Assembly (NCBI GenBank): GCA_023522315.1
Contig: JAHCSU010000264.1
Coordinates: forward strand, 1 to 38,064
Source of the DNA: Nostoc sp. CCCryo 231-06
Lineage (GTDB): Bacteria > Cyanobacteriota > Cyanobacteriia > Cyanobacteriales > Nostocaceae
Reading direction: 5' to 3'
Length of the DNA: 38,064 nucleotides
Position 1 is the stretch's first letter. Each line of letters begins with the position of its first letter. The notes below the pieces were generated by a model. That model did no database searches. It was given only the letters and a program-made list of their open reading frames with translations, and had not been told where the DNA came from. Position numbers and translations under genes: made by a program. Below are positions 252 to 20,572 of the stretch, in pieces.

Positions 252-482
252 ATGGCTATTGATGCAGAAATTTTACAAACACTAGATCAAATGCCAGAGC
301 CACTTAAACAAGAACTCTTGCATTATGCCAAATATTTAGTTGAGAATTATTCAAAGGCTGTTTCCCAGGAAACTTTACTACAAAAAAAGCGTCTATCTGG
401 CATCTTAAAAAGAACTTTTGTTTTACCTTTGCCTGATGACTTTGATGAACCTCTCGAAGTTTTTAAGGAATATATGGAATGA
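252..482 (+). CDS. VapB-like antitoxin, DUF2281 family
   Basis: This 76-aa protein has the layout of the DUF2281 antitoxins that precede VapC toxins. The N-terminal part (LDQMPEPLKQELLHYAKYL, about residues 11-29) is helical, and a loose acidic C-terminus (LPDDFDEPLEVFKEYME) is suited to wrapping the toxin. A clear ribosome site, AGGAGAAATC, sits directly before the ATG. The stop overlaps the start of vapC as ATGA (479-482), the usual translational coupling of toxin-antitoxin pairs. Because the toxin gene next to it is broken, this antitoxin is probably an orphan, unless it neutralises a VapC elsewhere. The family call is by motif only. Confidence 0.75.
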   Translation: MAIDAEILQTLDQMPEPLKQELLHYAKYLVENYSKAVSQETLLQKKRLSGILKRTFVLPLPDDFDEPLEVFKEYME

Positions 483-974
483 GTAGTTTCCTTTTAGATA
501 CTCATGCCTTTATCTGGCTAACTGAAAATGACTCCAGCCTTCCAGATATAGCGTTTCCTAATCACATGAGTTACATCATAGCCCCCTCTCGAAGAGCGGG
601 GAGGGGGTTGGGGGTGGGGTTCTTGTACTTCACTCAACTGATAACCGCTATAATCTGAGGATGATGATCAATACGGCAGATACCGTTTATCTGAGCATCG
701 CTAGGCTAGTCTTTGGTAAATTTCCATCAAGTTTAACCTTGGTAAATTATCGCTTCAACGGAGCTATGAAACGATAGGTTCTGCAATCGACGGTTCAGAT
801 ATCCTTATAATTCCGATATCTTTTGCCGATACAGTTCAGGTTCGGAATCTCCCGCTACATCATGGCGATCCATTTGACCGAATGTTGATTGCACAGGCTA
901 TCAATCACTCCTTAATTATTATTAGCAGGGATAAAAAATTTGATGCTTATTCTGTTCAGAGGATGTGGAAATAG
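479..974 (+). pseudogene. vapC: vapC PIN-domain toxin, interrupted by a MITE and a frameshift
   Basis: The reading frame starts as a normal PIN-domain RNase (LLDTHAFIWL, with the first catalytic Asp) and the gene ends with the expected tail PFDRMLIAQA ... SRDKKFDAYSVQRMWK (about 870-974). Between them a 106-bp repeat (547-652) is inserted after codon 22, so the translated product stops at 656-658 after 59 residues. Further on, relative to the copy at 2302-2527, there is a 5-base duplication (GCTAGGCTAG near 701) that shifts the frame. The two lesions together rule out an active toxin. The stretch between the lesions aligns well to the second copy, so the original gene can be rebuilt by eye: about 130 residues, normal for VapC. 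Confidence 0.85.
547..652. mobile_element. 106-bp MITE-like element, copy 1 (in vapC)
   Basis: The element begins TATAGCGTTT and ends AACCGCTATA, so its ends are imperfect inverted repeats. Removing it and one TA restores CCAGA-TA-ATCTG, which matches the uninterrupted second vapC copy (CCAGA-TG-ATCTG at 2306-2317). This points to insertion with TA target duplication, as for IS630/Tc1-mariner-type elements. The centre is GC-rich (GGGGTTGGGGGTGGGGTT) with a small hairpin and no coding capacity. A second copy of identical length lies in the opposite orientation at 19943-20048; by eye about 90 of 106 positions agree without gaps, with most differences in the central hairpin. Confidence 0.88.
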
Positions 975-2301: not shown

Positions 2302-2527
2302 CCTTCCAGATGATCTGGTGATGATGATCGATACCGCAGATATTGTTGATCTCAGCATCGCCAGTCTTTGGGAAATTGCCATTAAGTTGAAGCTTGGCAA
2401 ATTATTGTTTCAAGGGAGTTATGAAACAATTGTTTCTGCGATTGATTCTTCAGATATCTTCATACTTCCGATATCTTTTGCCGATACAGTTCAAGTTCGG
2501 AATCTCCAACTACTCCGTACACAATAA
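2302..2527 (+). pseudogene. vapC: partial vapC (PIN domain), both ends missing
   Basis: The open stretch from 2318 gives the middle of a VapC: DLSIASLWEIAIKLKLGKL, then FILPISFADTVQVRNL, with no frameshift. The N-terminal DTHAFIWL with the first catalytic Asp and the C-terminal PFDRMLIAQA block are missing, and the end (QLLRTQ, stop 2525-2527) is unrelated to the other copy. It therefore cannot be an active RNase. It is homologous to the vapC at 479-974 and lacks the MITE, which makes it the reference for the empty insertion site. The left junction falls in CCTTCCAGA (2302-2310), a 9-mer also present at 199-207 and 538-546. Confidence 0.8.
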
Positions 2528-19942: not shown

Positions 19943-20048
19943 TATAGCGGTTCTCGGTTCAGTGAGGTATAAGAACCCCACCCCCAACCCCCTCATCGCT
20001 TGCGATGAGGGGGCTATGATGTACCTCATCTGATTAGGAAACGCTATA
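19943..20048. mobile_element. 106-bp MITE-like element, copy 2 (intergenic)
   Basis: The reverse complement of this stretch aligns without gaps to the element in vapC at 547-652 and has the same length. Ends are TATAGCGGTT and AACGCTATA, again with TA at both borders. The centre forms a perfect hairpin, CCCTCATCGC-AA-GCGATGAGGG, better preserved than in copy 1. It lies between the Wzc-like gene (19806) and galE (20573) and is directly joined to a second, unrelated element that starts at 20047. Confidence 0.85.
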
Positions 20049-20178
20049 GTACAGCGCGGCGGAAATAAACAACCCATTCCAAATCAACGAAACGCTTATG
20101 TTGTATTCATTTTGACTTTTGACTTTTGGTTACTGAGCCTGTCGAAGTATGACTTTTGACTTCCGCCTTGCGGTACTA
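20047..20178. mobile_element. second MITE-like family, long copy (132 bp)
   Basis: The ends TAGTACAGCGCGGCGGAAAT and, in reverse complement, TAGTACCGCAAGGCGGAAGT are imperfect inverted repeats, bordered by TA. The inside is non-coding and has TGACTTTTGACTT repeats. A shorter relative (89 bp) with matching ends lies at 37417-37505. The left border shares its TA with the end of the 106-bp element, so one of the two appears to have landed at the edge of the other. Confidence 0.75.
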
Positions 20179-20211
20179 GTACCTCGTGAAGTTTAAATTA
20201 ATGGGTAAGCA

Positions 20212-20270
20212 AGTTCGTAGTCAGGACTTTAGCCCTGATCTTCAAACCACTAAAGTGCTTACTACAAACC
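20212..20270. repeat. third small inverted-repeat element (GTAGTnAGGACTTTAG family)
   Basis: The left end GTTCGTAGTCAGGACTTTAG and the reverse complement of the right end, GGTTTGTAGTAAGCACTTTA, match imperfectly, and TCAGGACTTTAGCCCTGA is itself a near-hairpin. A partial relative, GTTTGTAGTAAGGACTTTAG, starts at 37983. With the two preceding elements it fills most of the 19807-20572 gap. The remaining bases show no gene; the 20280-20572 part is left as possible leader sequence only. Confidence 0.65.
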
Positions 20271-20572
20271 ATAAAAACTAGCTTGAAAAAGTACTAGGTC
20301 TGGATAATCTATAAAGATTTAGTAAAAGGTTATCAAGCTTCTCTCCAAATAACATACGTATTATTACGGCTTTTTCTACATGATGCTATAAGGAGATATT
20401 TGCAAATTTCACTGGCTCAAATTGTCCATAATCTAGTGTTCGCTAGTGATGTAGCGGTTTTCGTTTACGTGAATCACACCAGTAAAACCACGGTACTGTC
20501 CATTAGGCATTCCCAATCTCCGGCTGGAAACAAGACAATCTATAAAAAGCTGGTTATAGGTTCTGCTCCAAA

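Follow-up and report, generated by a model that had tools for sequence, protein, structure and literature searches.

A 106-bp element at positions 547-652 of a Nostoc sp. CCCryo 231-06 contig is best explained as a non-autonomous IS630/Tc1-type element (MITE) that lies in a toxin-antitoxin gene and was moved in trans into a TA dinucleotide, an explanation to which, taken as a whole, we assign a probability of about 0.9. Throughout, the window denotes the entire stretch of 38,064 nucleotides that was analyzed (contig JAHCSU010000264.1, forward strand), and its features are collected in Table 1.

Table 1. Coordinates and strands of the features discussed, in window positions.
Feature	Position	Strand	Remark
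MITE family A, copy 1	547..652	+	106 bp counting both TA; within vapC-type gene
Left terminal repeat including TA target	547..575	+	29 bp, begins TATAGCG
Right terminal repeat including TA target	624..652	-	
Central hairpin CCCCCTC...GAGGGGG, tip variable	582..607	.	
G-rich arm, four G tracts (quadruplex-type pattern)	598..619	+	Top conservation of five segments compared
5' piece of split vapC-type (PIN) gene	479..546	+	Uninterrupted gene in L137 is Pfam PIN
3' piece of split vapC-type gene, additionally damaged	653..974	+	
Antitoxin-type gene upstream	252..482	+	Pfam DUF2281
MITE family A, copy 2	19943..20048	-	
Different 132-bp TA-flanked MITE-like repeat	20047..20178	.	TAGTAC...GTACTA
Truncated second vapC copy	2310..2527	+	Joined at CCTTCCAGA to 2247-2310, copy of 144-207

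The element is short and multicopy, carries terminal inverted repeats, and has no transposase gene, as is characteristic of MITEs. A sequence-only reading of the window had described an element of 106 bp with ends TATAGCG...CGCTATA that splits vapC, has no coding capacity, and recurs as an inverted copy of the same length at 19943-20048. Its coordinates, length, and ends are correct; the second copy is indeed inverted and 106 bp long, with 89% identity to the first; and the sole frame noted within the element is that of vapC reading through. The draft assembly of the same genome (7.08 Mb, 720 contigs) was searched for copies, and 57 both-ended elements of 92 to 122 bp were recovered, whereas a reversed-pattern control returned none; the element is therefore not a chance arrangement. 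A DNA search with the 106-bp query identified at least 40 copies or part copies, each at E ≤ 5.6e-28, a number that is a floor, as 40 of the 160 candidates were scored. When flanks were listed, TA was kept at both outer ends in 29 of the 31 displayed copies, as judged by eye (exceptions, L012 and L013). Rfam covariance models at gathering score gave no match in the window. One pair of copies at different sites is identical, and 29 of 703 pairs in a 38-copy alignment differ by 2% or less; such near-identical pairs suggest that family A, to which both window copies belong, was active fairly recently.

Target duplication was evaluated at uninterrupted sites in relatives. With window positions 380-960 as the query, 44 of 53 genus genomes (this one included) were matched, many via the MITE alone, and 12 vapC-flank loci (L131-L142) were examined, with matches missing the site (e.g., L144, L150, and L153) left out. 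At every one of these loci, the flanks lie two bases apart in the best placement; the two bases read TA at nine loci and GA, AA, and TG at one each; the right flank is weaker at two of the loci (5 and 7 mismatches of 20). At the place of copy 2, three of nine relatives (L280-L282) can be aligned across the site and hold a single TA (...AAC TA GTA...), five align on the left side only and show no TA there, and L288 barely aligns. TA thus stands on both sides of the element in this genome and alone at two loci in relatives, and insertion of the element duplicates TA, as the earlier reading had claimed. The three vapC sites at which the bases are not TA, and the other six relatives, without TA at the second locus, count against our overall explanation.

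The duplication had previously been read directly off a sister vapC copy at 2302-2527, taken as the unfilled site. TG is present there, but the copy is 5'-truncated, and it is through the relatives that the duplication is supported. The copy aligns to 650-858 on the right of the site, but the sequence preceding CCTTCCAGA corresponds not to vapC but to 144-207, a stretch that lies upstream of the antitoxin-type gene. Because only 9 bp of left flank (by eye) are common to this copy and vapC, it would by itself be weak evidence for an empty site, and 20-base flank words were not placed in it by script (9 and 11 mismatches). The truncated copy (2247-2527) apparently arose at the 9-bp repeat CCTTCCAGA.

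The insertion adds a net 104 bp and shifts the vapC-type frame, such that the frame from 479 crosses the element and stops at 656-658. The homologue is open in L137, the one relative checked for this. Upstream, DUF2281 is the sole Pfam family matched by 252-482 at E ≤ 0.001. The 3' part of the vapC-type gene exceeds that of 10 of 11 aligned relatives by 5 bases and that of the eleventh by 6. Given this further downstream damage, the gene at 653-974 resembles a pseudogene even apart from the MITE.

At the place of copy 2, the genome reads TA, family A MITE, TA, 132-bp repeat, TA. The 132-bp repeat, which has an inverted repeat of 15 of 18 bp and similar stretches in several genus genomes, abuts copy 2 with one TA common to both; on the simplest reading, two different TA-elements seem to have used one TA in turn. 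On two other contigs of this genome, C65 (L031, ~1420-1608) and C559 (L013, 1501-1640), TATAGCG-type ends have their TA or TATA in common with the neighboring element, which looks as though one MITE end had been the target of another, and at L187 (1929-2023), a 95-bp TATAGCG MITE lies within an IS630 copy. Within the window, 20186-20297 is another dispersed repeat with many genus matches, and a pair of 51-nt inverted repeat arms (2631-2681 and 2829-2879; 147 nt apart, 76% complementary) is surrounded by an outer pair (2593-2616 and 2907-2930), possibly marking another mobile repeat.

To identify candidate autonomous partners, we turned to loci encoding DDE_3 transposases; among the matches listed, all 53 genus genomes have such loci. 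None of 29 fetched DDE_3 loci that were examined carried TATAGCG ends on the IS itself, and nine of 40 further loci, picked by place, were elements with TATAGCG ends. A partner profile was then built from eight orfB proteins of TATAGCG-ended elements and searched in the 53 genomes, of which 14 gave a match at E ≤ 2e-90. In 13 of them (all but G044, from which no pair was obtained) and in G064, whose profile match is weaker (3.2e-75), the element was confirmed to have TATAGC at each end, so that TATAGC-ended IS630-type elements of 1032 to 1123 bp are found in 14 congeneric genomes. Two of the transposases were tested and scored 168.8 and 104.5 bits with NCBIfam NF033545 (transpos_IS630; cut-off, 100), and their Pfam domains are DDE_3 and HTH_Tnp_IS630; three of four elements displayed encode the transposase as separate orfA and orfB, and the L208 transposase had no PDB sequence match at E ≤ 0.01. 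Of the five best plasmid matches, four have TATAGC at both ends, namely, those of Calothrix NIES-4101, Nostoc MS1, N. edaphicum (on a plasmid typed as conjugative), and Oscillatoria nigro-viridis, and the fifth, from Synechococcus NIES-970, has TACAGC ends. The prediction of an IS630/Tc1-type mover is thus supported by congeneric and plasmid-borne IS630-type elements whose ends are of the same kind, and these TATAGC-ended elements are likely autonomous partners of the MITE.

Similarity to the MITE ends was scored over 30 positions for three groups of IS630 elements: 15 to 26 for nine TATAGC-ended elements, 11 to 18 for five with TATAGCAACC-type ends, and 14 to 22 for four with TACAGC ends. Against the IS630 ends in L217, L222, and L224, the left end of copy 1 reaches at most 23 and that of copy 2 at most 25; the left end of copy 1 matches the right end of the L250 IS at 26 positions (by eye). 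The right end matches one IS630 end each in L207, L208, L215, and L219 at 26 positions. Family A therefore has its nearest left-end matches in the L250, L222, and L217 types and its nearest right-end matches in the L207, L208, L215, and L219 types, which might point to a hybrid origin of the family, only a possibility given that L224 scores 25 with the right end as well. A parallel set of TACAGC-ended IS630 elements (L204, L216, L223, and L225) and short TACAGC-ended paired repeats (L160, 3273-3375; L188, 796-898) was also observed in the genus.

It is improbable that the mover belongs to another IS630 subgroup, either the TATAGCAACC type, as represented by L044 on contig C720 of this genome, or the TACAGC type. 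L044 is the closest relative of the partner proteins in the genome (32 to 36% identity), and an end beside it begins TATAGC; however, no complete end pair was found around L044, and the end matches of both subgroups range lower than those of the TATAGCG group. The TACAGC group nevertheless reaches 22 of 30 at one MITE end, so that the TATAGCG subgroup is no more than the probable mover of family A.

The earlier reading placed the mover elsewhere, which holds for congeners and plasmids; in the draft assembly of this genome, none was detected. The genome gave seven DDE_3 matches, none with TATAGCG ends, and some of these lie near contig ends, where an end may be missing; the IS630 copies of the genome were accordingly rejected as movers. 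Their proteins show 24 to 36% identity or no match to the partner proteins, none being close. The single match of this genome to the partner profile (1.8e-34) is taken to be L044, a member of the TATAGCAACC-ended IS630 group, because no other protein of the genome is closer to the partner proteins. Single-end searches of this genome and its relatives, in which one pattern recovered chiefly variants that carry an additional base, revealed no transposase-bearing element longer than the MITE among the loci fetched. Two plasmid blastn matches to the MITE were dismissed as well, as each comprised one end and no transposase was annotated within 4 kb. The MITE is apparently orphaned yet movable in trans, although the 720-contig draft may have collapsed or lost a repeat that holds the partner.

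Across the genus, MITE numbers and partner presence do not go together, which we regard as a lead and not a test. In a comparison of 23 genomes, the partner match at E ≤ 2e-90 occurs in G001, G007, G011, and G022, with 3, 0, 3, and 2 both-ended elements, whereas none of the eight genomes with at least 10 such elements (57 in this genome, 42 in G005) has one. The exact both-end pattern undercounts old copies, as G001 has 11 scored matches to window positions 380-960, mostly to the MITE alone. Six of 53 genomes have no profile match at E ≤ 1e-30, including G005 (42 MITEs) and G008 (14 MITEs); G007, conversely, has 48 profile matches but lacks both-ended elements; and G001, G041, and G065 combine family A copies with the partner type.

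The genome holds at least two families with common ends and different cores. Family A has a G-rich core and a usual length of 106 bp, and family B has a GGGCACGGCA.TGCCGTGCCC palindrome core and a usual length of 107 to 108 bp. Flanks are AT-rich: in the 36 copies of family A gathered by script, G stands directly left of TA once and C directly right once, and in the 22 of family B, twice and once, respectively. Of the 38 relatives searched, 26 contain both-ended elements: 21 of 22 within the genus and 5 of 16 from other families of the order. Many further cores stand between such ends among the matches listed, and the exact family A left end occurs in Nostoc sp. NOS, LPT, and NMS7 and in Anabaena catenula (six stretches). 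In ~0.8 Mb of fetched loci, which were picked largely for holding MITEs and partly overlap, no core was free-standing: all 42 exact G-arm matches lie within MITEs (both ends were recognized for 39 of them, and one end is eroded or truncated for the other 3), and the 18 family B cores are likewise all bounded by ends.

To describe the inner anatomy of family A, 38 copies from this genome were aligned (37 of the 40 scored DNA-search matches and one both-ended pattern copy). Family A folds into a long hairpin (z of -2.2 to -5.8). In the G-rich arm, 0.987 of cells equal the consensus, compared with 0.955 and 0.940 at the two ends; the arm is exact in 30 of 38 copies, and the four-tract pattern is retained in 33 of 38. 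Because the copies differ by a mean of 0.098 per pair and share descent, conservation of the arm beyond that of the ends is suggestive only. The tip of the hairpin varies (0.70) and is found in either orientation, e.g., CTCATCGCTTGCGGGGAG and its reverse complement, which suggests inversion at the palindrome, perhaps via template switching. One of 26 predicted pairs showed two-sided change, and an RNA function for the element was dropped, given no Rfam match and virtually no covariation. The strong central hairpin could also fit a palindromic repeat of the REP/RAYT type, moved as a single strand by an HuH transposase rather than by cut and paste, and REP-type repeats are described in cyanobacteria (PMC3733652). 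We consider this very unlikely, as long common terminal repeats occupy both outer ends, IS630-type elements have the same kind of ends, and TA duplication at two loci already disfavors it. Spread solely by segmental duplication or gene conversion, without transposition, is hardly credible: the truncated second vapC copy is a local duplication, but the flanks of the copies gathered (36 of family A, 22 of family B) have no sequence in common beyond TA, and relatives retain clean, uninterrupted sites.

For the IS630/Tc1-type MITE that we favor, the following course is proposed. An element consisting of ~29-bp terminal repeats of an IS630-subgroup kind, without a transposase gene, would be moved into TA by a transposase present in trans, with duplication of TA. 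The transposase would come from IS630-type elements of ~1.03 to 1.12 kb with the same kind of ends, carried by congeners and cyanobacterial plasmids. The recent spread in this genome is probably owed to a partner since lost, to arrival on a plasmid, or to a copy missed by the draft. The insertion studied here adds 104 bp and shifts the frame of an otherwise damaged vapC-type gene. A wider and rather doubtful extension is that Nostoc-type cyanobacteria harbor a long-lived superfamily of orphan MITEs with one ~29-bp end set and many exchangeable cores, which persists without a transposase and is reactivated by visiting, partly plasmid-borne IS630 elements; the G-arm of family A may serve movement or host tolerance. 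Comparing strains with and without partner plasmids would offer a route to how MITEs spread without a resident transposase, and the present family provides direct TA evidence at two sites together with a set of likely partners.

The element type itself is already known, and the family is new as far as checked. TATAGCG-type ends were not found in print among the papers listed from an open-licence library, and an earlier description under another name may exist. Like the MITE, the Tc1/mariner-related IS630 family has a TA target and terminal repeats; unlike the MITE, it has a DDE_3 transposase. Cyanobacterial MITEs with proposed mobilization in trans are likewise known, and Nezha and the MITEs of Anabaena sp. 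90 were compared with the present family by description. Nezha (Zhou et al. 2008) is a cyanobacterial MITE (PMC3733652, PMC10969869, PMC3049150) for which mobilization in trans by an ISNpu3-like IS has been proposed (PMC3049150), and it resembles the element at 547-652 in both respects. In Anabaena sp. 90, 147 type II MITEs of 77 to 541 bp with hairpin structures are reported, 15 of them interrupting genes, with no evident similarity to the IS inverted repeats of that genome (PMC3542288). In contrast to those elements, the MITE described here has IS630-type elements with matching ends in its relatives.
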